A stretch of DNA of 64,000 nucleotides from Rhodococcus rhodochrous (GTDB lineage: Bacteria; Actinomycetota; Actinomycetes; Mycobacteriales; Mycobacteriaceae), in NCBI RefSeq assembly GCF_900187265.1, contig NZ_LT906450.1, positions 4,517,444-4,581,443 of the forward strand, given 5' to 3'. The position numbers were made by a program, and so were the translations under genes. Below the pieces are notes generated by a model. That model was not told the origin of the DNA and did no database searches. It saw nothing but the letters and a program-made list of their open reading frames with translations. This document shows, piece after piece, positions 12,479-40,761 of the stretch; the first letter of the stretch is position 1, and each line of letters opens with the position of its first letter.

Positions 12479-13186
12479 TCAGCAGGAAGCGAGGACGCGC
12501 GCCATCGCGTCGTGTTCCGCCTGGGTGACCCACAGTTCGTAGACGGTCTTCACCTCGATCTGCCGCACGACGTACTCGCAGTGGTAGGCGGTGTTCGGCG
12601 GCAGCCACTCCGACGCGTCGGAGTCGCCCTTGCCCTGGTTGGTGGGGCCGTCGACGGCGATCAGGTTGCGCGGATCGTTCGCGAGGTTCCGCTTCGCCTG
12701 ATCGTCCAGATAGCGAGCGCCCTTCTTCCACGCATCGGACAGGGCCACGACATGGTCGATCTGCACGGCGGACGAGGTCTCGACCCCTCGACGGAAGGAG
12801 ATCGTCTTCCCCGTGTACGGGTCCTCGAGGGTGCCGGCGACGACCGTGCACTGCTTCTTCCCCGGCTCGAAGGAGACGTCGACGAGGTCGCGCCGGAGGA
12901 TGTCGTTACGGGTGTCGCAGCCGTTGCGCCCCAGGTCGACGGTCACCTCGTCGGTCCAGGCCGAACCGAACAGCGAACGGTCGTAGCCACTCTGCGGTTC
13001 GGCGGGCCGGACGGGCAGTGCCGCCAGCGCCTCGAGGGCTTCGGAGGGGTTCTCGACCGTGCCGCCGCCGGGACCGGCCGGTTCGTCGTCCCCCACGGGT
13101 TCGAGGAGGACGACGACCACGCTGACCACGATGAAGCACAGGATCCAGACCCAACGGGGAATGGACGACGTGCGAGTGCTCGCCAT
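12479..13186 (-). CDS. Secreted or membrane-anchored HNH-family endonuclease-like protein (DUF1524 type)
   Basis: A 235-aa protein with an N-terminal hydrophobic helix (WVWILCFIVVSVVVVLL, about residues 12-28) that anchors or exports it. An acidic, Gly/Pro-rich linker follows. The conserved core has GCDTRNDIL, the nuclease motif QIDHVVALSDAW, and NDPRNLIAVDGPTNQGKGD. This matches actinobacterial HNH/DUF1524 secreted nucleases, whose role may be nucleic-acid scavenging. The final Cys and internal Cys residues could form disulfides. Its stop directly abuts the convergent E1 gene. Confidence 0.85.
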   Translation of the reverse strand: MASTRTSSIPRWVWILCFIVVSVVVVLLEPVGDDEPAGPGGGTVENPSEALEALAALPVRPAEPQSGYDRSLFGSAWTDEVTVDLGRNGCDTRNDILRRDLVDVSFEPGKKQCTVVAGTLEDPYTGKTISFRRGVETSSAVQIDHVVALSDAWKKGARYLDDQAKRNLANDPRNLIAVDGPTNQGKGDSDASEWLPPNTAYHCEYVVRQIEVKTVYELWVTQAEHDAMARVLASC

Positions 13187-13224: not shown

Positions 13225-14247
<1,023 letters not shown>

Positions 14248-14409
14248 CAGACGAACTCCTCCTCCTCGATGTACCTCGTGTCGGCACATCGCATCCGGTC
14301 AACGATATCGCAGGTCACGGTTTCGTCACAGCGCAGCCCCGACGATGCGCTTCCGTGACCGGTACCGCAAGCGGCCGTCCCGTCCACCGGACGAGGCTAG
14401 CGTCGCGGT

Positions 14410-15018: not shown

Positions 15019-15057
15019 TTGCCTGACGAGTAACATGGAGATGTTACCGACGAGTAA
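15019..15057. promoter_or_regulatory. Tandem operator sites upstream of fadE5
   Basis: Two related 15-16-bp sites lie between the methyltransferase stop and fadE5. On the minus strand the proximal one reads TTACTCGTCGGTAAC (15043-15057). The distal one reads GTTACTCGTCAGGCAA (15019-15034) and is weaker on one side. The two sites also form a perfect GTAACAT-GGAG-ATGTTAC dyad (15030-15047). The proximal site matches sites before fadA2/fabG4 and tetR. Confidence 0.6.
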
Positions 15058-15115
15058 TAACTTGGGCGGTACTTGAAGCCAGCTGGACCGCACCACACTG
15101 GGAGACACCGACGAC

Positions 15116-16951
15116 ATGGGCCATTACAAGAGCAACCTCCGCGACCTCGAGTTCAACCTCTTCGAATTCCTGAAGATTCAGAAGGTCCTCGAAGCCGGCA
15201 AGTTCGGCGATCTGGACGAGGACACCGCACGCGGCATCCTCGCCGAGGTCAAGGCACTGGCCGAGGGGCCGGCCGCCGAAGGCTTCGCCGACGCCGACCG
15301 CAACCCGCCGGTCTTCGACCCCGAAACCCATTCGGTGTCGCTTCCCGAGCCGTTCAAGAAGTCGTTCCGCGCCTGGTGGGACGCCGGTTACTGGTCGATG
15401 GGCATCCCTGAGGAGATCGGCGGCACCGACGCACCCCGCAGCCTCCTGTGGGCCGTCAACGAGATGATGCTCGGCGCCCAGCCGGCGGCGTTCATGTACG
15501 CGGCCGGTCCGGCCTTCGCGGGCGTGCTGTACGACAACGGCACCGATGAGCAGAAGCAGTGGGCCGCCACCTGCGTCGAGCGCGGCTGGGGCGCCACCAT
15601 GGTCCTCACCGAGCCCGACGCCGGCTCCGATGTCGGCGCCGGTCGCACCAAGGCGATCAAGCAGGACGACGGCTCCTGGCACATCGAGGGCGTCAAGCGG
15701 TTCATCACCTCGGCCGACTCCGACGACCTGTTCGAGAACATCTTCCACCTCGTCCTCGCCCGCCCCGAGGGCGCCGGTCCGGGCACCAAGGGCCTGTCGC
15801 TGTTCTTCGTCCCGAAGTTCCACTTCGACTTCGAGAAGAACGAGATGGGCGAGCGCAACGGCGTGTTCGTCACCAACGTCGAGCACAAGATGGGCATCAA
15901 GGCCTCCGCGACCTGCGAGGTCACCTTCGGTGGCCACGGTGTTCCGGCCAAGGGCTGGCTCGTCGGTGAGGTCCACAACGGCATCGCGCAGATGTTCGAC
16001 GTCATCGAGCACGCTCGCATGATGGTCGGCACCAAGGCCATCGCGACCCTGTCGACCGGTTACCTCAACGCCCTCGACTACGCCAAGGAGCGCATCCAGG
16101 GCGCCGACCTGACCAAGATGTCCGACAAGACCGCCCCGCGCGTGTCGATCATGCACCACCCGGACGTCCGTCGTTCGCTCGCGATGCAGAAGGCCTACTC
16201 CGAGGGTCTGCGCGCCGTGTACCTGTACACCGCCGCCCACCAGGACGACTCCGTCGCCGAGCAGGTCTCGGGCGCCGACGCCGGTCTCGCGCACCGCATC
16301 AACGACCTGCTGCTGCCGGTCGTCAAGGGTTGCGGCTCCGAGCGCGCCTACCAGTACCTGAAGGATTCGCTCCAGACCCTCGGCGGTTCGGGCTTCCTGC
16401 AGGACTACCCGATCGAGCAGTACATCCGCGACTCGAAGATCGACTCGCTGTACGAGGGCACCACCGCCATCCAGGCGCAGGACTTCTTCTTCCGGAAGAT
16501 CGCCCGCGACCGCGGTGTGGCGCTCGCCCACGTCGCCGGTGAGATCAAGAAGTTCGTCGAGCGCGACGACGCCGACCAGCGTCTGAAGAAGGAGCGCACG
16601 CTCCTGGCCACCGCCCTCGGCGAGACCCAGACGATGGTCGCCACGCTCACCCAGTACCTCATGGGTGCGCAGGAGCAGCCCACCGAGCTGTACAAGGTCG
16701 GTCTCGGTTCGGTCCGCTTCCTCGAGGCGTTCGGCGATCTGATGATCGGCTGGCTGCTGCTCGAGCACGCCGAGATCGCGCTCTCCGCGCTCGACGACGG
16801 CGTCGACGCCTCGGACAAGGCGTTCTACGAGGGCAAGGTCGCGGCCGCGTCCTTCTTCGCCAAGAACGTCCTGCCGGAGCTGAGCGTCGCGCGTCAGATC
16901 ATCACCGACGTCGACCTCGACATCATGGAGCTCGACGAAGCGGCGTTCTGA
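15116..16951 (+). CDS. fadE5: Long-form acyl-CoA dehydrogenase, FadE5-like
   Basis: A 611-aa flavoprotein acyl-CoA dehydrogenase, the same length as M. tuberculosis FadE5 as I recall it. N-terminal [19 protein letters not shown], the FAD/substrate region [16 protein letters not shown], and [15 protein letters not shown] with the probable catalytic Glu near residue 447 are family hallmarks. An extra C-terminal helical domain makes it longer than classical ~390-aa dehydrogenases. It catalyses alpha,beta-dehydrogenation of acyl-CoA, with broad chain length in mycobacterial relatives. Highly biased codon use suggests strong expression. It carries the proposed TetR operators upstream. Confidence 0.92.
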
Positions 16952-16980
16952 TCGAACCGCTCACGGCGGTAGCGCGATAG

Positions 16981-17042
16981 ACGAGACCGACGTTGTGTGC
17001 GATGTCCCGACGGATTTCGCACACGACGTCGGTCTCGTCGTT
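16981..17042 (+). terminator. Long-stem hairpin terminator after fadE5
   Basis: A 21-bp stem with one T-G wobble (16981-17001 pairs with 17018-17038) closes a 16-nt loop and is followed by CGTTTT. The stem ends in TGTGCG/CGCACA, and the loop carries TCC-CGAC-GGA. It has the same architecture as the hairpins at 18312-18359 and 44983-45040. Confidence 0.8.
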
Positions 17043-17056
17043 TTCGGGAGCAGCGT

Positions 17057-17074
17057 TGACAACCTTTGTTGTCA
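17057..17074. promoter_or_regulatory. Operator dyad overlapping the -35 of the MpaB-like gene
   Basis: TGACAAC-CTTT-GTTGTCA is a perfect 7-bp inverted repeat, and TTGACA within it is an ideal -35 hexamer. Binding here would block RNA polymerase directly. The spacing and symmetry suit a TetR-type repressor. The position also argues that the downstream gene starts at or after 17092. Confidence 0.6.
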
Positions 17075-17091
17075 GTAGCACTCTGAGCTCT

Positions 17092-18303
17092 GTGACCATC
17101 ACCGGCACGTCGACGACGACTCGGTACATGCGCGACCGCGAGAAGGCCGCCCGCATCACCGCACCCCTGCGCCCCTTCGCGGGACGCGCTCCCGACGCCA
17201 CGCCCGAGGAAGCGGACGCCCTGCAGCGCGCCCTGCTCGAGCGCGACGAACCCAGCGCCGAACTGGTGCGGGCCATCCGGCGCGACCGCACCGTCACCCT
17301 CGCGCAGTTCCGCACTGCACTGGCCGAGGGCGTCGACGCCGTCCCCGACGCCCCTCCCGTGCTCCGGAAGTACTTCGAGATGCTCGAGGACACCCCCGAC
17401 TGGGTCGACCGCGACAGGATCGCCCTCGGCGCCCGCACGCTGCGCAGGGTCGGATCCGACGTCGGCGACGTCCTCGCCTACGGCTCGCTGCTCGGCGGAT
17501 ACAACAACTCCGGTCCACTGCCGGTGCTGACGTCGTCCGGTCGCCTCACCGGCGAGCGCACCCGCCGGCGCATCGCCGAGACCGGGACGTGGTGGAACGG
17601 GTGCGTCGCCGACGGCGGTCTCGAACGGTTCGGCGAGGGATTCACGCTCTCGGTGCACGTGCGACTGATGCACGCCTTCGTCGACTATCACCACGAGCAC
17701 GACGGCGAGTGGGACACCGAGTTCCGCGGACTACCGGTCAACCAGTTCGACCAGGCCGGCACCCTGGGCCTGTTCTCGATCACCTTCCTGCTCCACACCC
17801 GCGTCCTGGGTGTGCGATACACCCGGCGCGAGGCCGAGGCCGTCCTGCACCTGTGGGCGTACGTCGGGTGGCTGATGGGCGTCGACCCGAAGTGGCTCCG
17901 GTTCGAGGAGCGCGCGGGGCTCCGGATGATGTACCAGATCGGGTCGTCCTCGCCCGCTGCCGACGAGAACAGCCATATGCTCGCCCGGTCGCTCGTCGAA
18001 CTCCCGCTCCACACGCGGTATCCGCGTTTCCAGGCACTGCGTCGACGGTACGAATACGAACGCGGACTGTCGCTCGCGACAACGCTTCTCGGCCCGTCCG
18101 GGGTCCTCGCACTGAAGGTCCCGCTGCGTCCGCCGTGGTATCCGGTGGGTCGCTTCGCCGTGAACGTCGTCAAACACCATGTGGTCGGCCGCTTCCCGTC
18201 CGGGAAGGCGTGGTTGCAGCGGCACGGTGAGAAGCAACTGCGCGACGCGCAGCTCCGCATCCTCGACGGCGAGATCCCCGACGTGGTGGCGCTTCCCGAG
18301 TGA
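17092..18303 (+). CDS. Oxygenase MpaB family protein (DUF2236, latex-clearing-protein-like)
   Basis: About 403 aa from GTG 17092 (ATG 17128 is an alternative). RIAETGTWWNGCV, the conserved VHVRLMHAFVDYHHEH helix and the central LHLWAYVGWLMGVDPKWL segment match the DUF2236/MpaB group. The group contains heme or iron oxygenases, including rubber-cleaving Lcp; the His and Arg residues in the VRLMHAF helix are candidate ligands. There is no clear signal peptide. The gene is monocistronic between two hairpin terminators and has an operator dyad at its promoter, so it is probably substrate-induced. The substrate is unknown. Confidence 0.82.
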   Translation: MTITGTSTTTRYMRDREKAARITAPLRPFAGRAPDATPEEADALQRALLERDEPSAELVRAIRRDRTVTLAQFRTALAEGVDAVPDAPPVLRKYFEMLEDTPDWVDRDRIALGARTLRRVGSDVGDVLAYGSLLGGYNNSGPLPVLTSSGRLTGERTRRRIAETGTWWNGCVADGGLERFGEGFTLSVHVRLMHAFVDYHHEHDGEWDTEFRGLPVNQFDQAGTLGLFSITFLLHTRVLGVRYTRREAEAVLHLWAYVGWLMGVDPKWLRFEERAGLRMMYQIGSSSPAADENSHMLARSLVELPLHTRYPRFQALRRRYEYERGLSLATTLLGPSGVLALKVPLRPPWYPVGRFAVNVVKHHVVGRFPSGKAWLQRHGEKQLRDAQLRILDGEIPDVVALPE

Positions 18304-18311
18304 CGAAGTAA

Positions 18312-18359
18312 GGGGAGGTTGTGTGCGGTTTCCTCACCGGAGCCGCACACAACCTCCCC
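18312..18359. terminator. Long-stem bidirectional terminator between MpaB-like and VanW genes
   Basis: GGGGAGGTTGTGTGCGG pairs perfectly over 17 bp with its complement at 18343-18359 around a 14-nt loop. It is followed by GAAGTTTCG and sits between two convergent genes. Core TGTGCG/CGCACA and loop TCC/GGA are shared with two other hairpins in the window. Confidence 0.82.
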
Positions 18360-18378
18360 GAAGTTTCGAGGACGTCGG

Positions 18379-20910
18379 TTACTCCTCCTCGGTTCCACCC
18401 GCTGCCGGCGCCTCGGCCGCAGGCGATTCCGGCGCGGGTGCGTCCTCGGCCTCGGCGTCCTCCGATCCGGTGTCGCCGGAGGTCGCGTCGTCGCCACCAC
18501 CGGAGGGCTCGTCGCTCGGTTCCGGTTCGGGGCTGATGCACTTCACGATCGGGACCGGGTCGTACCGGACCGTGCGCGTCGCGTTCGAGATCTGCGCGCC
18601 CGTCCGTGCGTCGGTGACGATCCGGGTGTCGGTGACGGTGAAGCCCTGCGCGCCGCTCGACGGGATGCAGGCCGAACCGGCGGGCAACGTGATCGTGTTG
18701 GGCGAGGTGAAGTTCGTGCGGTTGCCGGTGACCGACTGGACGTCGACGGTCTTCGTGCCCCAGATGCGCACCGTGATGTCCGAACTCGTGCCGATCGTCT
18801 GGATCAGGACGCCCGTGTCGAACGGGTTGCGAAACTTCAGGTCGATGGCACCGTCGTAGATCGTGGCCTCGCGGGCCGCAGGGTACCGGGAGATGTAGTA
18901 GCTGTGCTCGGTATGCTCGACGTCCTCCATACCCGCGAAGTAGGTCGCGTTGTAGAGGGTGGTCGCGAGCTGGCTGATGCCACCGCCCACGGCCTTGCCG
19001 GGACGTCCGGACTCGATGATGCCCGACTCGATGTACCCCTGTGCCGCACCGCGCGGACCGGTGTAGTCGTTGAAGGAGAAGGTGTCCCCCGGCTTGACGA
19101 TGGCGCCGTTGATCTCCTGGGCGGCCAACCGGATGTTGACGCCTGACGCGTATTCGAAGCCGCTGGTGGTGAACTCCGAGACCACCTCCTTGATGCCGAG
19201 CTTCTCGGCGCCTTCGGTGGTGAGTTCCGGTTCGGCCTTCCTGTACACCGCGTCGGTGCTGCGGTCGCCCTCCTCCTTCAGCAGGTCGGGCAACCTCTCG
19301 AGGGTGACGGGCCAGTCGACCATCTCGCCGGTCTCGCTGGGCACGATCGTCGGGCGACCACCGTCGAGGACGATCCGCGCATCCTTCGGCTCGGTCTCCG
19401 ACGGCGCGAGCTGCGGCGCGAGGATGCCGATCGCGGCCTCTGGATTGTACTGCGGTTCGAGTCCTCCCGAACCGTTCGGCACGAACGACAGGACGGCGCC
19501 CACCGCATCGCGCGGAAGCACACCGACGGCCCCGTCGAGCCCCCGGACGACCAGATCCTGCGCCACGGCCGGAACCGCGACTTCCGCCAGCGCCCGGTCG
19601 AGGCCCTCGCGGGTGACGGTGACGTCGACGCTCTCGACGGGCAGCGAGACATCACCGTACGGCCAGCGCTCAGCGAAGACGTCGCCTGCGACGGCCACGT
19701 CGAGTTGCTGGCCGGGCTGCGGCGTCACCGGAACGGGAGTGCCGTCCTCGAAGACGATGTTGCCCTCGCGCGGCTCGTGCGCGGCGGCAGCGGCGGCCTT
19801 CTCGATGGCTGCGGACAGGGCGACCTCGTCGCGCGTGGAGACCACGCCGACCTCGTCGTTCCCGAAGAACGACGCGAGTCGCGTGAACGGATTGAGCGGC
19901 TGCGAACCCACCTGGTCGAGGGTCGCGGGCCAGTCGATCCCGATCCCGGCCTCCGACGGCACGATCTGCCCCTGCGTGTCGCCGGCGGTGACGTCGACGG
20001 GCATGTCGAGCCGCGGCGTCAGTTGCTCGGTGAGCTCTGCCTCGGCCGCATCGAGCGACATGCCGCCGATCTCGACACCTGCGACGGTGACACCGCGCGG
20101 CACCTTGCCCGACGACAACGCCAGATCGGCCACGTAGAACACGGCGAGCAGCGCGACGACGCCACCGACGACGAGCGCGATCGTGCGCCGGGGCAGATTC
20201 GATCCGGACCTGCCCGGTTCGTCGCCGTCTCCGCCGGAACCTCCCGGGCCGCCGGTGGGCGGAGGGGTGACGGGAGGCGGTCCCTGCGGCGGCGGACCCG
20301 CCTGCATCTGCTGGGTCGGCTGGTCGCCCTGCGGCGGATGGGCGGCCGACGGCATCGCCGTCGACGTGGGCGGGACGGGAGCCTCCGGCTGTTCGGGGCC
20401 GGGTTGTGCCGGGTTCTGTTCCCCCTGCGAACGGAGGAGCCGATCGGTGGCGGCGGACGATCCGTCGCCCGGTGCCCGGTTCCCCGGCGCGACGACCGGA
20501 ATGACCGCGGTGGGCGCCTCCGAGGGATGGACGTTCTCGGTCGGGGACTCGTCTGCGCCGGTGGGAGCCACCTGCTCCGGGTTCGTGGGAGCCGCCTGCT
20601 CCGTGTTCTCAGCGGCGGCCTGCGGGGCAGCCAGGTCTTCCGTCTTCGGCTCGTCGACCCGCGGCTCCGCCGCTCCACTCGCCTCCTGGGCCTCGGCAGC
20701 TTCCGGCTGCGGGGCTTCGACGTCGGCCTTCTGGTCGGTGGCACTGCCCGCCTGAGACTCGGTCACCTCCCGGTGAGGATCGACCGCTTCGAAACGCTCG
20801 GTAGGAGCCGACTCGGCCTCGCGAGCGGACTCCGCCGTCGAACCGACGTTCTCGGTTCGTGCGTCGTCGTGCTCGTGAGGGGACTCGTCGGTCCCGTTGC
20901 TGCCGCTCAC
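18379..20910 (-). CDS. VanW-family membrane-anchored cell-wall protein
   Basis: An 843-aa protein. Residues 1 to about 240 are a disordered Pro/Glu/Ala-rich cytoplasmic region. One TM helix follows (IALVVGGVVALLAVFYVADLAL). Extracellular repeats resemble the YoaR-type putative peptidoglycan-binding domain, with phrases such as VPSEAGIGIDWPATLDQV and VPSETGEMVDWPVTLERL. The VanW domain shows GDTFSFNDYTGPRG and GGGISQLATTLYNATYFAG. The C terminus is acidic and Pro-rich. VanW proteins are linked to the cell wall, but their biochemical role is unknown. GTG 20910 follows GAAGGGA. Confidence 0.87.
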   Translation of the reverse strand: MSGSNGTDESPHEHDDARTENVGSTAESAREAESAPTERFEAVDPHREVTESQAGSATDQKADVEAPQPEAAEAQEASGAAEPRVDEPKTEDLAAPQAAAENTEQAAPTNPEQVAPTGADESPTENVHPSEAPTAVIPVVAPGNRAPGDGSSAATDRLLRSQGEQNPAQPGPEQPEAPVPPTSTAMPSAAHPPQGDQPTQQMQAGPPPQGPPPVTPPPTGGPGGSGGDGDEPGRSGSNLPRRTIALVVGGVVALLAVFYVADLALSSGKVPRGVTVAGVEIGGMSLDAAEAELTEQLTPRLDMPVDVTAGDTQGQIVPSEAGIGIDWPATLDQVGSQPLNPFTRLASFFGNDEVGVVSTRDEVALSAAIEKAAAAAAHEPREGNIVFEDGTPVPVTPQPGQQLDVAVAGDVFAERWPYGDVSLPVESVDVTVTREGLDRALAEVAVPAVAQDLVVRGLDGAVGVLPRDAVGAVLSFVPNGSGGLEPQYNPEAAIGILAPQLAPSETEPKDARIVLDGGRPTIVPSETGEMVDWPVTLERLPDLLKEEGDRSTDAVYRKAEPELTTEGAEKLGIKEVVSEFTTSGFEYASGVNIRLAAQEINGAIVKPGDTFSFNDYTGPRGAAQGYIESGIIESGRPGKAVGGGISQLATTLYNATYFAGMEDVEHTEHSYYISRYPAAREATIYDGAIDLKFRNPFDTGVLIQTIGTSSDITVRIWGTKTVDVQSVTGNRTNFTSPNTITLPAGSACIPSSGAQGFTVTDTRIVTDARTGAQISNATRTVRYDPVPIVKCISPEPEPSDEPSGGGDDATSGDTGSEDAEAEDAPAPESPAAEAPAAGGTEEE

Positions 20911-21013
20911 CCGGATCCCTTCGCAAAGCTGGACGCGCTGTCGAATTCGCGCGCCGACTACCTGGTTTCAAGGGTAGTGCCCCAGCTTCGGTCGGCTTCG
21001 CCCGGAATGCGAA

Positions 21014-21060
21014 GACCCCGCGTTGCTACCAGGTCGGGGGTCAGGCAGCAGCGCGGGGTC
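21014..21060. terminator. GC-rich hairpin between fadA2 and the VanW gene
   Basis: GACCCCGCG (21014-21022) pairs with CGCGGGGTC (21052-21060), and the inner TTGCT/AGCAG extends the stem to about 14 bp around a 19-nt loop. It lies about 80 bp downstream of the fadA2 stop and upstream of the VanW gene on the same strand. It probably terminates fadA2, but there is no U-tract. Confidence 0.5.
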
Positions 21061-21140
21061 GCTGGGTCTATCGCTGTCCGTCGCGGAGCGTTACACACCG
21101 AACGGAACTTTTTTTCTCAACGACTTCCGAGGGGTGTCGA

Positions 21141-22454
21141 TCAGGCCTCGAGAATCGCCGTCACACCCTGTCCACCTGCGGCGCAGATGGAGATCAGGCC
21201 GCGGACGGGCTTGCCGGTCTCCTGCTTCTTCTCGTGCAGCATCTTGGCGAGCGAGGCCACGATCCGGCCGCCGGTCGCGGCGAACGGGTGGCCGGCCGCC
21301 AGCGACGAGCCGTTGACGTTGAGCTTGCTGCGGTCGATCGAGCCGAGCGGGGCGTCGAGGCCCAGCTTGCCCTTGCAGTACTCCTCCGACTCGAACGCCT
21401 GGAGGGTGGCGAGCACCACGGAGGCGAACGCCTCGTGGATCTCGTAGAAGTCGAAGTCCTGCAGGGTCAGGCCGTTGCGCTGCAGCAGGCGCGGGATGGC
21501 GTAGGTGGGCGCCATGAGCAACCCGTCTCCACCGTGGATGTAGTCGACCGCGGCGGTCTCGGAGTCCACGAGGTAGGCGAGCACGGGGAGCTTGCGCTCG
21601 GCGGCCCACTCCTCGCTCGCCAGCAACGCGGCCGATGCGCCGTCGGTGAGCGGCGTCGAGTTGCCGGCGGTCATGGTGGCGTCGCCCAGCTTGGTGCCGA
21701 AGACCGGCTTCAGCGTCGACAGCTTCTCGACCGACGAATCGGGACGCAGGTTGTCGTCGCGGGTCAGCCCGAGGAACGGGGTGACGAGGTCGTCGAAGAA
21801 GCCCCGGTCGTAGGCGGCGGCCATGTTGCGGTGGCTCGCGACGGCCAGTTCGTCCTGCGCCTCGCGGGAGACGCCGAACTCCTTGGCGGTGATCGCGGCG
21901 TGCTCACCCATCGACAGGCCGGTGCGCGGCTCGCCGTTGCGCGGGATCTCGATGCCGAGCATCGACGGGCGGACGTTGCCGAGCAGCTTGACCCGGTCGG
22001 CCGTGGTGCGGGCCCGGTTCAGGGAGAGCAGGAACTCGCGGAGCTGGTTGTTCACGGCGATCGGGGCGTCGGAGGTGGTGTCGACGCCGCCGCCGATACC
22101 CGCCTCGATCCGTCCGGCGGCGATGGCGTCGCCGACCGCGATGATCGACTGCAGGCCGGTACCGCAGGCCTGCTGCAGATCCCAGGCCGGGGTGTAGGGG
22201 CTCAACGCGCTGCCGAGCACGCTCTCGCGGACGAGGTTGAAGTCGCGGGCGTGCTTGAGGACCGCACCGCCGACGACGGCACCGAGGCGCTCACCCTGCA
22301 GGTTGAAACGGCCGACGAGACCGTCGAGGGTGGCGGTGAACATGTCCTGGTTGGACGCGCGGGCGTACTTGCGGTCGGACCGGGCGAACGGGATCCGGTT
22401 GCCTCCGAGAACGGCGACACGGCGCTGCTGCGTGGAACGGGCTTTGGTGGTCAC
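21141..22454 (-). CDS. fadA2: Acetyl-CoA acetyltransferase / thiolase, FadA2-like
   Basis: A 437-aa thiolase. The acyl-accepting Cys is in [13 protein letters not shown]. The catalytic His is in [20 protein letters not shown] and the second Cys is in [13 protein letters not shown]. It performs thiolytic cleavage or Claisen condensation of 3-ketoacyl-CoA. It is divergent from fabG4-htdX, as in M. tuberculosis Rv0243/Rv0242c. GTG 22454 follows GGGAG by 7 bp. The shared TetR-type operator lies 45 bp upstream, so it is probably co-regulated with fabG4, htdX and fadE5. Confidence 0.93.
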
Positions 22455-22499
22455 TGGTGTCTCCCGGTTTCGGACGGATTCGAATTCTGGCTACTATTC

Positions 22500-22513
22500 T
22501 TACTCACGGGTAA
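22500..22513. promoter_or_regulatory. TetR-type operator in the fadA2/fabG4 divergent promoter
   Basis: TTACTCACGGGTAA is flanked by C and G to give an 8-bp-per-side CTTAC...GTAAG dyad. It is central between the two divergent starts (22454 and 22579), so one repressor could control both directions. It matches the fadE5 and tetR upstream sites. Confidence 0.65.
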
Positions 22514-22578
22514 GTTTGTTGTCGAACACGCTTGCTGTCGAACACTGCACCGACGACCGAATCGAAGAAGGTGGAATC

Positions 22579-23925
22579 GTGGCCGAAGCCAAGGGCGCAC
22601 CCAAGCTCTACGCCCAGCTCATCTCGTCCGCACCCGGAGCGTTCCTCGCCAAGCAGTTCGGTCTGCCACAGCCCGAGAAGCTCCGGCGCTACCAGCCCGG
22701 CGAGCCCCCGCTCCCCGGCCCCGTCCTGCTCGGCGGCAACGGCCGCCTGGTCGAACCGATCCGCAACCTCCTGAGCGACTACACGTTCGCCGAGCCGTCC
22801 GACACGAAGTTCGGCGCACTCGTCTTCGACGCTACCGGCATCACCGACCCCGCGGGCCTCGAACAGCTCTTCACGTTCTTCCAGCCCACCCTGCGCAATC
22901 TCGCCCCGAGCGGCCGCGTCGTCGTCCTGGGCACCACGCCCGAGGAGGCCCGATCGGTCGACGAGCGCATCGCCCAGCGCGCCCTCGAGGGCTTCACGCG
23001 CAGCGTCGGCAAGGAACTGCGTCGCGGTGCCACCGTGCAGCTCGTCTACGTCTCCCCCAAGGCCGCGACCGGCCTGTCCGGTGTGGAGTCGACGCTGCGC
23101 TTCCTGCTCTCGGCGAAGTCGGCTTTCGTCGACGCCCAGGTGATCCGCATCGGTGAGGGCGACGCCACCGCCCCCGAGTCGTGGGAGCGTCCGCTCGCCG
23201 GCAAGGTCGCGGTCGTCACCGGCGCGGCCCGCGGCATCGGCGCGACGATCGCCGAGGTGCTCGCCCGCGACGGCGCGACCGTCGTCGCCGCCGACGTCCC
23301 CGCTGCGGGCGACGCGCTGACCCAGACCGCCAACAAGGTCGGCGGCACCGCCTTCGCGCTCGACGTCACCGCACCCGACGCCGGTGAGAAGCTCGCCGCG
23401 CACCTGCTCGAGCGTCACGGCGGCGCCGACATCATCGTCCACAACGCCGGCATCACCCGCGACAAGCTGCTCGTCAACATGGACGCCGCTCGCTGGAACG
23501 CCGTGATGGGCGTGAATCTGATCGCCCCGCAGAAGATCACCGACGTGCTCGTCGAGAAGGGCGCGCTGAAGGAGGGTGGCCGGGTCGTCGACGTGTCGTC
23601 GATCGCCGGTATCGCCGGTAACCGCGGCCAGACCAACTACGGCGCCTCGAAGGCCGGTGTCATCGGCCTCGTCCAGGCGACCAGCGAGGCGCTCGCCGAC
23701 AAGAAGATCACCGTCAACGCCGTCGCTCCGGGCTTCATCGAGACCGCCATGACGGCCGCGATCCCGGTCGCCACCCGCGAGGCCGGCCGCCTGATGAGCT
23801 CGCTGCAGCAGGGCGGCGAGACCGTCGACGTCGCCGAGACCGTCGCGTGGTTCGCGAACCCCGCGTCGAGCGCCGTGACCGGGCAGGTCGTGCGCGTGTG
23901 CGGCCAGTCCATGCTGGGGGCCTAG
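22579..23925 (+). CDS. fabG4: 3-oxoacyl-ACP/CoA reductase with N-terminal extension, FabG4-like
   Basis: A 448-aa high-molecular-weight SDR. About 210 N-terminal residues form an extra, Rossmann-like but degenerate domain seen in the FabG4 group. The catalytic domain has the cofactor motif [17 protein letters not shown] (Gly-rich, about residue 214), the [11 protein letters not shown] segment, and the Ser/Tyr/Lys catalytic set in [24 protein letters not shown]. It reduces 3-ketoacyl thioesters, probably of CoA. GTG 22579 follows AAGAAGG. The stop codon directly abuts the htdX ATG, so the two are one operon. Confidence 0.93.
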
Positions 23926-24783
23926 ATGGCACGGATCGAACTGCCCTCGCTGCCGTCGACCTTCGACATCTACAGCCGGGCCGTGCTCGGGGCGCTGCCC
24001 GTCGTGGGCGCGTCGGGCGACAGCCTGCCCGACGACGTCCTGGTCCTGCGGTCGCTGAAGGTCGATCCCGACAATCTCGCCGAGTACACCAAGGTGTGCG
24101 GGCTGCGGTTCGGCGACAGCCTGCCGCTGACCTATCCGTTCATCCTCACGTTCCCGCTCGTCATGAAACTGATGGTGTCGAAGGGCTTCCCGTTCGCTGC
24201 CGTCGGTTCGGTGCACGCCGAGAACGTGATCGAGCAGTTCCGGCCGATCTCGGTCACCGAGCCGCTCGACATCGCGGTGCACGCGGAGAACATGCGCGAA
24301 CACCGCAAGGGGCTGCTCGTCGATCTCGTCAGCGAGGTCAACGTCGGACGCGAGTTGGTCTGGCGGCAGACGTCGACCTTCCTGCACCAGCAGCGCACGT
24401 CGCTGTCGGGTCAGCCCAAGCCGGAGCCGAAGGAGGAGGAGGTTCCCCCGGTCCCCACCTCCACTCTGCGGGTCGACCAGAAGGTCATCGACCGCTACGC
24501 TGCGGTCTCCGGTGACCGCAACCCGATCCACGTCTCGACCCTGGGCGCCAAGGCCTTCGGATTCCCGAAGACCATCGCCCACGGCATGTGGAGCGCGGCG
24601 GCCACCCTGTCGGCCGTCGAAGGACGGATCCCCGGCAAGGTGACCTACGCGGTGCGGTTCGGGAAGCCGGTCCTGCTGCCGTCGTCGCTGAGCCTGTATG
24701 CGCAGCACGTCGCCGACGGATGGGATCTGGCACTGCGGCATCCGAAGAAGCAGTACCCGCACCTGACCGCCACGCTGCGGTAG
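23926..24783 (+). CDS. htdX: MaoC-family 3-hydroxyacyl-thioester dehydratase, HtdX-like
   Basis: A 285-aa double hot-dog dehydratase. The hydratase-2 motif is in the C-terminal half: RYAAVSGDRNPIHVS...FGFPKTIAHGMW, with Asp and His of the catalytic dyad. The N-terminal half is a degenerate hot-dog (LTYPFILTFPLVMKLMVSKGFPF). It interconverts 3-hydroxyacyl and trans-2-enoyl thioesters. With FabG4, FadE5 and FadA2 it gives all four steps of a beta-oxidation-like or reverse elongation cycle. The start immediately follows the fabG4 stop. Confidence 0.92.
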   Translation: MARIELPSLPSTFDIYSRAVLGALPVVGASGDSLPDDVLVLRSLKVDPDNLAEYTKVCGLRFGDSLPLTYPFILTFPLVMKLMVSKGFPFAAVGSVHAENVIEQFRPISVTEPLDIAVHAENMREHRKGLLVDLVSEVNVGRELVWRQTSTFLHQQRTSLSGQPKPEPKEEEVPPVPTSTLRVDQKVIDRYAAVSGDRNPIHVSTLGAKAFGFPKTIAHGMWSAAATLSAVEGRIPGKVTYAVRFGKPVLLPSSLSLYAQHVADGWDLALRHPKKQYPHLTATLR

Positions 24784-24802
24784 GGCGGGGAACCACCGAG
24801 AC

Positions 24803-24847
24803 TTCGGGCGGGGCGGGACGCGATGGGGGCGTTCCGCCCCGCCCGAA
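24803..24847. terminator. Terminator between htdX and the TetR gene
   Basis: TTCGGGCGGGGCGG pairs perfectly with CCGCCCCGCCCGAA (24834-24847). Inner GACGC/GCGTT pairing extends the stem to about 19 bp. It lies between convergent genes and probably works in both directions. It lacks the TGTGCG core of the other long hairpins. Confidence 0.75.
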
Positions 24848-24897
24848 CCCTCGTGTGGCGAATACCCTTGTGGCCGAGGCGTTCTCAGTGAGACGGT

Positions 24898-25506
24898 TCA
24901 GTGCATCTGATCGGAACGCTTGCGTCCCGCAAGACCACGCCAGGCGAGGTTCTCGAGCAGATCCGCTGCCTGCTGCACGTCGATCTCACCGCCGGCGATG
25001 CGGTCGGCGACGGCCTCACCCGCACCGACGAGTGCGACGGCCATGATCGTGAAGTTCGTGTCGGGTTCCGGATCGCGCGTGCTCGATTCGAGCAGGTGCG
25101 CGGTGAGTTCGATCAGCCGGTCGCGGCTGCCCTGCACCTGGGGTGCGAAGGCCTGCTGCGACAACGCCTGACGATAGAGGACCATCCACGACGGCCGGTG
25201 CTCGTCGACGAAGCCGAGGAACGACTCGAGCGCGACCCGCAGTTGTTCACGCGGGGCGAGGGTGGGGTCGCCTGCCGGTGTGAGCGCCTCGACGAACCGC
25301 TGCCCCTCGCGCGCGATGCACGCCGCGAACAACTCGTCCTTCGACCCGTAGTACAGGTAGAGCATCGGCTTGGAGATCGACGCCCGCGCCGCGATGGCGT
25401 CCATGGACGTGTTGTGGAAACCGTGCTCGGAGAACACTTCGACGGCGGCGTCCAGCATCTGTTGCTCGCGGACCGCACGCGGCAGTCGCTTGGTTCCGCC
25501 CGCCAT
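24898..25506 (-). CDS. TetR-family transcriptional regulator (Rv0238-like)
   Basis: A 202-aa one-domain regulator. The N-terminal helix-turn-helix spans about residues 16-60: MLDAAVEVFSEHGFHNTSMD, then IAARASISKPMLYLYYGSKDEL. The C-terminal ligand-binding region contains LESFLGFVDEHRPSWMVLYRQ. In M. tuberculosis the equivalent gene also lies between lpqI and the htdX-fabG4 genes. A TTACTC-CGGTAG dyad 31 bp upstream matches sites before fadE5 and fadA2/fabG4. Autoregulation and control of those genes is inferred. An acyl-CoA ligand would fit. Confidence 0.92.
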   Translation of the reverse strand: MAGGTKRLPRAVREQQMLDAAVEVFSEHGFHNTSMDAIAARASISKPMLYLYYGSKDELFAACIAREGQRFVEALTPAGDPTLAPREQLRVALESFLGFVDEHRPSWMVLYRQALSQQAFAPQVQGSRDRLIELTAHLLESSTRDPEPDTNFTIMAVALVGAGEAVADRIAGGEIDVQQAADLLENLAWRGLAGRKRSDQMH

Positions 25507-25536
25507 GACTCCTCCCAGACTCCTCGAATGAAGTTC

Positions 25537-25550
25537 TTACTCTACGGTAG
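25537..25550. promoter_or_regulatory. Putative autoregulatory operator upstream of the TetR gene
   Basis: TTACTCTACGGTAG is one base from a symmetrical TTAC...GTAA dyad and matches the consensus TTACTCNNSGGTAR of the fadE5 and fadA2/fabG4 sites. It lies 31-44 bp before the start codon. Confidence 0.6.
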
Positions 25551-39975: not shown

Positions 39976-40761
39976 GTGCCATCGACGACCCGACCCCGCA
40001 CCGACGTGACCCGGCTGTTCGCCCGCCGCGCCACACTGCGCCGTTCCGTGGGGTTGCTCGGCAGCTTCCGGTTCGAACAGACGGAACCGGAGAAGTTCTA
40101 CGGTGGTCTCGCGCGCGACACCGTCGACCTCATCGGCGATCTCTACACGGGGCTGACCGGCGCCGATCTGACGGGCACCACGGTCGTCGACGTCGGCGGT
40201 GGACCGGGTTACTTCGCGGATGCGTTCACCGAGGTGGGTTCGCGGTACGTGCCGATCGAGCCCGACCCGTCGGAGATGCACGCCGCCGGTCTGCAGGTGG
40301 GCGGTGCGATCCGCGGCTCGGGCCTGGCACTGCCGCTGCGTACCGGATCGGTGGACGTGTGCTTCTCGTCGAACGTCGCCGAACATGTTCCGACGCCGTG
40401 GGTGATGGCCGACGAGATGCTGCGCGTCACGCGTCCCGGCGGACTGATGGTGCTGTCGTACACCCTGTGGTGGGGGCCGTTCGGCGGGCACGAGACCGGT
40501 CCGTGGCACGCCTTCGGCGGCGAGTACGCGGCCCGGCGCTACGCCCGCAAACACGGCCGGGAACCGAAGAACCGGTACGGGGTGTCGCTGTTCGACGTCG
40601 GCGCGAGCGACGGTCTGCGCTGGGCACGTTCGACACCCGACGGTGAACTGCTCGCGGCGTTCCCCCGCTACCACCCGAACTGGGCGTGGTGGCTCGTGAA
40701 CGTGCCCGGTGTCCGAGAGTTCCTCGTCAGCAACCTGGTCCTGGTCCTGCGGCGACGCTGA
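39976..40761 (+). CDS. Class I SAM-dependent methyltransferase (Rv0224c-like)
   Basis: A 261-aa soluble methyltransferase. Motif I is VVDVGGGPGYFADAF near residues 69-83, followed by the acidic PIEPDPSEM and the SSNVAEHVPTPWVMADEMLRVTRPGG region. The partner is presumably the adjacent envelope glycosyltransferase, but the substrate is unknown. The gene order GT4/methyltransferase matches M. tuberculosis Rv0225-Rv0224c. The ROK gene follows 22 bp downstream and may be read through. Confidence 0.87.
   Translation: MPSTTRPRTDVTRLFARRATLRRSVGLLGSFRFEQTEPEKFYGGLARDTVDLIGDLYTGLTGADLTGTTVVDVGGGPGYFADAFTEVGSRYVPIEPDPSEMHAAGLQVGGAIRGSGLALPLRTGSVDVCFSSNVAEHVPTPWVMADEMLRVTRPGGLMVLSYTLWWGPFGGHETGPWHAFGGEYAARRYARKHGREPKNRYGVSLFDVGASDGLRWARSTPDGELLAAFPRYHPNWAWWLVNVPGVREFLVSNLVLVLRRR

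Follow-up and report, generated by a model that had tools for sequence, protein, structure and literature searches.

A shared operator at fatty-acid catabolism promoters of Rhodococcus rhodochrous and its probable reader, an FdmR-type TetR regulator

Described regulators and the present locus

This work concerns a 14-bp dyad, TTAC-N6-GTAA, found at the fadE5, fadA2/fabG4 and tetR promoters in a 64-kb stretch of the Rhodococcus rhodochrous genome (the whole of the DNA analysed, called the window here), and the TetR-type protein encoded by that tetR gene. The closest described system is that of the mycobacterial regulator FdmR, for which Dong et al. 2021 (doi 10.1073/pnas.2019305118) is reportedly the source, being the work cited for it in a 2025 paper. 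The passages of that 2025 paper that deal with it give Rv0238 the name FdmR and describe it as repressing genes for the degradation and modification of fatty acids in response to long-chain acyl-CoA (PMC12403877); in a table of another publication, Rv0238 is entered as the regulator of both Rv0241c (HtdX) and Rv0243 (FadA) (PMC4928086). FasR (Rv3208) is a TetR-type activator of fas-acpS and differs in its promoters and in its clade from the window TetR, while Bacillus FadR (YsiA), a TetR-type repressor of beta-oxidation, is not of the same family as the window TetR by model score. A motif with the same TAC-N6-GTA skeleton as the window operator was described at fas and at the Rv3229c/Rv3230c genes and linked to growth on palmitate (McGuire et al. 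2012, PMC3388012), but fadE5 does not occur in the main text, and in the portions available no regulator is named for the motif.

The window TetR resembles FdmR in gene neighbourhood and clade, and differs in coming from Rhodococcus where FdmR is mycobacterial, with FdmR itself being known here through a citing paper. The window system appears to be an FdmR-type regulon in Rhodococcus that extends a known system whose core is already in print; the reach of the operator across the order may be new, as may a TAC-N6-GTA code common to the FdmR-type TetR and its paralogue FasR. A first-pass annotation of this DNA had proposed a single regulon with a common operator and implied that it was new for the Rv0238 group. 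The regulon proposal is strongly supported and extends outside the window, both in genome-wide sites and in conservation, while the implied novelty is not supported, the regulator being already described as FdmR in the parts of the paper cited above (PMC12403877). We think it very probable that a fatty-acid catabolism regulon has TTAC-N6-GTAA as its operator, in this genome in the form TTACTCNNSGGTAR, and that the window TetR, as the Rhodococcus FdmR orthologue, binds it as a predicted dimer, represses, and is released by long-chain acyl-CoA.

The operator in the window and in the genome

An exact-pattern search of the window, with hits located on both strands, found TTACTCNNSGGTAR three times, at fadE5, fadA2/fabG4 and tetR, and not once in 100 dinucleotide shuffles; this agrees with the first-pass annotation, as does the lack of a fourth exact copy in the 64 kb. 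Site scores, in bits, come from a weight matrix that was derived from the eight exact sites of the genome and symmetrised. The strong fadE5 operator, TTACTCGTCGGTAA, occupies 15044..15057 on the minus strand, 59 bp ahead of the start codon, and scores 21.5 bits (it had been annotated as starting one base early, at 15043, while the positions of the other two sites stand). The divergent promoter of fadA2 and fabG4 holds TTACTCACGGGTAA at 22500..22513 on the plus strand (22.5 bits), and tetR has its own operator, TTACTCTACGGTAG, at 25537..25550 on the plus strand, 31 bp ahead of its start codon (17.3 bits). At 15020..15033, 24 bp away from the strong operator, fadE5 has a weaker second one (minus strand; TGCCTGACGAGTAA on the plus strand), already noted next to the fadE5 site in the first-pass annotation, which scores 11.2 bits, and one extra match of 11.2 bits occurs in the window, at position 40720.

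The genes behind these sites are readily assigned. The acyl-CoA dehydrogenase gene fadE5 (15116..16951, plus strand) encodes Pfam acyl-CoA dehydrogenase domains and a full-length match to PDB 6kse, 'Acyl-CoA dehydrogenase FadE5'; the 3-ketoacyl-CoA thiolase gene fadA2 (21141..22454, minus strand) is named from profile matches and PDB 7xly (FadA2); and the 3-ketoacyl reductase gene fabG4 (22579..23925, plus strand) from a score above the NF006110 cut-off and from PDB 5vp5 (FabG4). Directly 3' of fabG4 lies htdX (23926..24783, plus strand), coding for a hydratase of MaoC type (MaoC domain; PDB 4oob, HtdX), and then tetR (24898..25506, minus strand), the proposed fdmR orthologue, whose putative operator-binding product has TetR_N and TetR_C_46 domains. 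Elsewhere in the window, a gene whose product has a GmrSD C-terminal domain (12479-13186) adjoins a FabH-like gene (13225-14289).

Across the genome, a single 5.27-Mb contig for which the reversed pattern served as control, exact TTACTCNNSGGTAR occurs eight times and its reverse never. The five exact sites outside the window lie at two enoyl-CoA hydratase genes (one, echA in L009, with operator and start codon overlapping by one base; the other divergent from a purine nucleoside phosphorylase), at the gene for monomeric NADP isocitrate dehydrogenase (icd), at that for an iron-sulfur protein matching PDB 9ojn, 'Iron-sulfur-binding reductase', which we read as EtfD-like, and at an Lsr2-like gene. 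With one mismatch allowed there are 18 matches against four in the control, adding a secretory lipase, a fadD6-like ligase, isocitrate lyase (icl) and, loosely, succinate dehydrogenase (sdh). A search for just the palindrome, TTACN6GTAA, gave 14 places against four in the control, through which etfB and the gene of a second acyl-CoA dehydrogenase (fadE) join the list. The three patterns together give 24 places, 13 of them at promoters of lipid or central-carbon genes, tetR included. The ligase at 1422170, cut by the end of its locus, falls below the FadD6 cut-off (690.5 against 975) and just above that of the general model (626.9 against 625).

Two of these sites deserve separate mention. The lipase site, TTACTTTCCGGTAA at G000:C1:39248 (L128), ends 74 bp ahead of the secretory lipase gene, and the regulon may thus include fat release. 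The exact site at 5027411 (L013:5412) is 45 bp ahead of the gene for the Lsr2-like nucleoid protein, which has no clear link to lipid catabolism.

Conservation across the order

For the mycobacterial set we took 80 named loci that surround the tetR counterpart, the best 80 of 486 confirmed matches; genes were scored where they fell within the locus and were aligned from near their start, and a site was an upstream match of at least 12 bits. Such a site precedes fadE5 in 48/48 scored loci, fadA2 in 69/69 and fabG4 in 70/70, while htdX has its own upstream site in 0/58. With two rearranged matrices as controls there was at most one match per gene, and there were 11 and 22 matches over all 1.5 Mb against 171 for the true matrix. 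The fadE5 site reads TTACTGGTGGGTAA in all 48 loci and the fadA2 site TTACTCCAGAGTAA in 52 of 69. In alignments that took no account of the motif, the columns of the site had a mean conservation of 1.00 for fadE5 (median column 0.79; window rank 4/147), 0.97 for fadA2 (median column 0.48; rank 2/142) and 0.89 for fabG4 (median column 0.51; rank 13/142), and for each of these genes the five best listed conservation windows all overlap the site.

The paired arrangement at fadE5 recurs as well: in 37 of 48 mycobacterial promoters the best second site is found upstream of the strong one at a distance of 23-27 bp; the mycobacterial loci hold 43 site pairs in all, 33 of them at 25-26 bp. We considered and dropped a general spacing of 16 bp: it is seen in 14 of 16 close pairs, but these are confined to loci L148-L164, and the strict-site loci L088-L127 contain seven pairs at 11-26 bp and none at 16.

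In 150 genomes of the order we counted 306 exact sites against 20 control matches; outside the order the excess is weak (80 against 27 in 107 genomes). The surroundings of exact sites were examined in 70 loci, with two places represented twice. The site stands before fadE5 orthologues in eight of them, before EtfD-like genes in five, at tetR beside fabG4-htdX in three (L090, L095, L104) and, by eye, ahead of etfB in seven; in L030 it lies past the end of FadE5, away from the promoter, and was left out of the count. In families other than that of the window genome, all nine loci holding both fadA2 and fabG4 have a site between the two genes. The first-pass annotation had named random scatter, or a lack of conservation upstream of orthologues, as what would tell against a regulon; the motif is not scattered, as the 306 matches against 20 indicate, and it is kept upstream of fadE5, fadA2 and fabG4 orthologues.

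Single sites also adjoin other metabolic genes. Those backed by a model include 2-oxoglutarate dehydrogenase, 2-oxoacid:acceptor oxidoreductase, crotonyl-CoA carboxylase/reductase, acyl-CoA mutase, 3-hydroxyacyl-CoA dehydrogenase and glycerol-3-phosphate dehydrogenase, while a lyase (L042) and an EtfB (L088), both named by eye, had no model match at the threshold used. Exact sites adjoin crotonyl-CoA carboxylase/reductase in L048 (model-backed) and L039 (by eye), acyl-CoA mutase in L038 and the presumed CoA-ester lyase in L042, a pattern that would fit use of the operator by the ethylmalonyl-CoA route in these four loci. In one g5 genome (L105), an exact site lies between genes for glycerol-3-phosphate dehydrogenase (model-backed) and glycerol kinase (by eye).

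The regulator, FasR and the competing readings

The window TetR scores 68.5 bits for PF00440 (cut-off 24) and 105.9 bits for PF21943, TetR_C_46 (cut-off 27), placing it within both families. It falls into one clade (12 same-family proteins; support 100/100) with the mycobacterial-type proteins of the family, separate from the FasR clade (support 99/96). Its nearest named relatives are from Rhodococcus, and it is 60% identical to a protein that is itself 74-96% identical to the best 80 of 486 matches, whose titles are nearly all Mycobacterium or close genera. Judged by gene neighbourhood and clade, it is probably the Rhodococcus counterpart of Rv0238, an assignment that draws in part on gene order. 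Its R. jostii RHA1 orthologue is the solved structure 3f1b, deposited as a TetR-like regulator, and 3f1b is also closest to the predicted fold (mean predicted local distance difference test score, pLDDT, 83.1). Next in the fold ranking is a tied group containing Bacillus FadR and FasR as well as unrelated TetRs such as EthR, so the fold does not point to a particular ligand.

Other identities were considered and rejected. The window TetR is no FasR, scoring 95.8 against a 330-bit cut-off (NF053731) where the genome's FasR, encoded elsewhere and in a separate clade, scores 387; nor is it a FadR of Bacillus type (42.6 against 200, NF053878) or a KstR (30.9 against 280, NF033703). As a binder of the operator MadR is set aside, since its consensus as printed in the part of the source consulted, TCTGTG...GT, differs (PMC8872791). 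A TetR gene beside fadA2 in a genome of family f2 (L126) gave 33% identity over 116 residues and belongs, by eye, to another TetR group.

The operator code is, as far as the sites themselves tell, common to both paralogues, FasR and the FdmR-type TetR. The published FasR-DNA oligonucleotide contains the TAC-N6-GTA skeleton (PMC7382501, from the portion of that work at hand), and the recognition helices are similar (SKPMLYLYY against SKPVLYQHF). The single fas promoter among 18 that lacks TAC-N6-GTA is that of our own genome, where the best site is TTACCGACCAGTTA. In some genomes of the same family an extra strong site lies some 170 bp away from those normally seen at fas (L284 and L288; on the other strand in L280), such extra sites reading TTACCGATCAGTAA (20.5 bits) and TTACCGGCTAGTAA (17.3 bits).

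We scanned 30 FasR-like loci from selected genomes at a threshold of 9 bits, and all ten from family f13 (L251, L257-L259, L261, L262, L264-L266, L271) have a site of TTAC-N6-GTA type upstream of the FasR gene; among the other 20, four have one by our count and most of the rest show no match. The window TetR clade was not found in those f13 genomes at the threshold used for presence (E ≤1e-40). FAS I was not found in four of 22 genomes checked, all of family f11, and FasR is present in those four. Together, the sites at FasR genes in f13 and the occurrence of FasR without FAS I in f11 suggest that its older role may not be fas activation. It is conceivable, though we hold it as a tentative and rather doubtful proposal, that FasR, as activator of synthesis, and the FdmR-type TetR, as repressor of breakdown, read one code, TAC-N6-GTA, and in mycolic-acid bacteria share between them the task that in E. 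coli falls to FadR alone, with the fad regulon as the older target, run by FasR in families without the FdmR clade, and control of FAS I added later.

A number of observations weigh against a simple assignment of the operator to the window TetR. FasR is near-universal (148/150 genomes of the order), and TAC-N6-GTA is present in 17/18 fas upstream stretches against 1/18 for the reversed pattern; because FasR uses an overlapping code, control by the window TetR alone does not follow. Genomes without the TetR clade keep the motif before fadE5 (f13, f2 and two f12 genomes), before etfD (f13, f7, f12) and, by eye, before etfB (f13, f2). The tetR promoter scores under 12 bits in 12 of 28 same-family loci, and reaches that score in just 23 of the 80 mycobacterial ones, so self-regulation may be weak or lost in many. 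Eleven of the 24 places in our own genome have no clear lipid link (5027411, 566717, 1301065, 1426989, 3445306, 3728406, 4405753, 853866, 1147623, 1621220 and 2740203), the icl and sdh sites lie 235 bp and more than 300 bp from their start codons, and a review, in the portion concerned, has Rv0238 regulating efflux pumps and transporters (PMC6469627).

From the points on FasR one could argue that in R. rhodochrous these operators are read mainly by FasR, or that both paralogues compete for them, with one code coupling fat synthesis and breakdown, and the f13 genomes, with sites before FasR and, in some of them, motifs before fadE5, etfD and etfB, give this some colour. We nevertheless consider it unlikely. 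The repressor of fatty-acid degradation named in print is FdmR (Rv0238) and not FasR (PMC12403877, in the passages cited), and the inner bases of the usual fas sites are unlike those of the fad sites. Sites are more numerous where the window TetR clade is present (227 against 11 controls in 78 genomes) than where it is absent (79 against 9 in 72), a comparison of counts uncorrected for relatedness or genome size. The tetR gene itself has a promoter site of at least 12 bits in 29 of 44 loci (16/28 in the same family, 13/16 in others), and in 11 of the 16 other-family loci htdX or fabG4 is close by.

It is less probable still that the window TetR activates its targets, as its paralogue FasR, described as an activator (PMC7382501, in part), does at fas. 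FdmR is described as a repressor in the 2025 source (PMC12403877, same passages), and the sites are at or close to start codons: the exact ones, and those of etfB and the second fadE, extend from the start codon itself (the echA overlap) to 111 bp ahead, the others than echA standing at 12-111 bp, a placement which, the farther icl and sdh sites apart, mostly fits repression. The idea that the motif is a repeat of chance or structural origin with no regulatory role, for which the 11 unassigned places might speak, can practically be dismissed given the excess over controls in 150 genomes, and for the core promoters it is refuted by the conservation at fadE5 and fadA2/fabG4 together with the clean negative at htdX.

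A model of the regulon and its meaning

We thus favour the window TetR as the FdmR-type repressor of these genes. By analogy with mycobacterial FdmR, whose acyl-CoA-responsive repression is in print second hand, a TetR dimer would bind the operator and repress its own gene together with the beta-oxidation machinery, until a long-chain acyl-CoA fills the C-terminal pocket of the protein and TetR leaves the operator. The first-pass annotation's idea of an acyl-CoA-responsive switch agrees with that description, as far as the source goes (PMC12403877). The likely targets would serve fatty-acid activation and dehydrogenation (an acyl-CoA ligase and two acyl-CoA dehydrogenases), the rest of the cycle (the hydratases, two echA and htdX, with the ketoreductase fabG4 and the thiolase fadA2), the passage of electrons away from the dehydrogenases (etfB and the EtfD-like reductase) and the handling of acetyl-CoA (icd and icl).

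These results place an FdmR-type fatty-acid catabolism regulon in Rhodococcus, one whose operator is sharply defined and whose candidate targets extend to electron-transfer, tricarboxylic acid cycle and glyoxylate genes, and they offer a candidate function for the structure 3f1b. The overlap of the operator with that of FasR raises the question of whether one DNA code ties fat synthesis to breakdown. In oil-storing Rhodococcus, the regulon provides a handle on lipid turnover.

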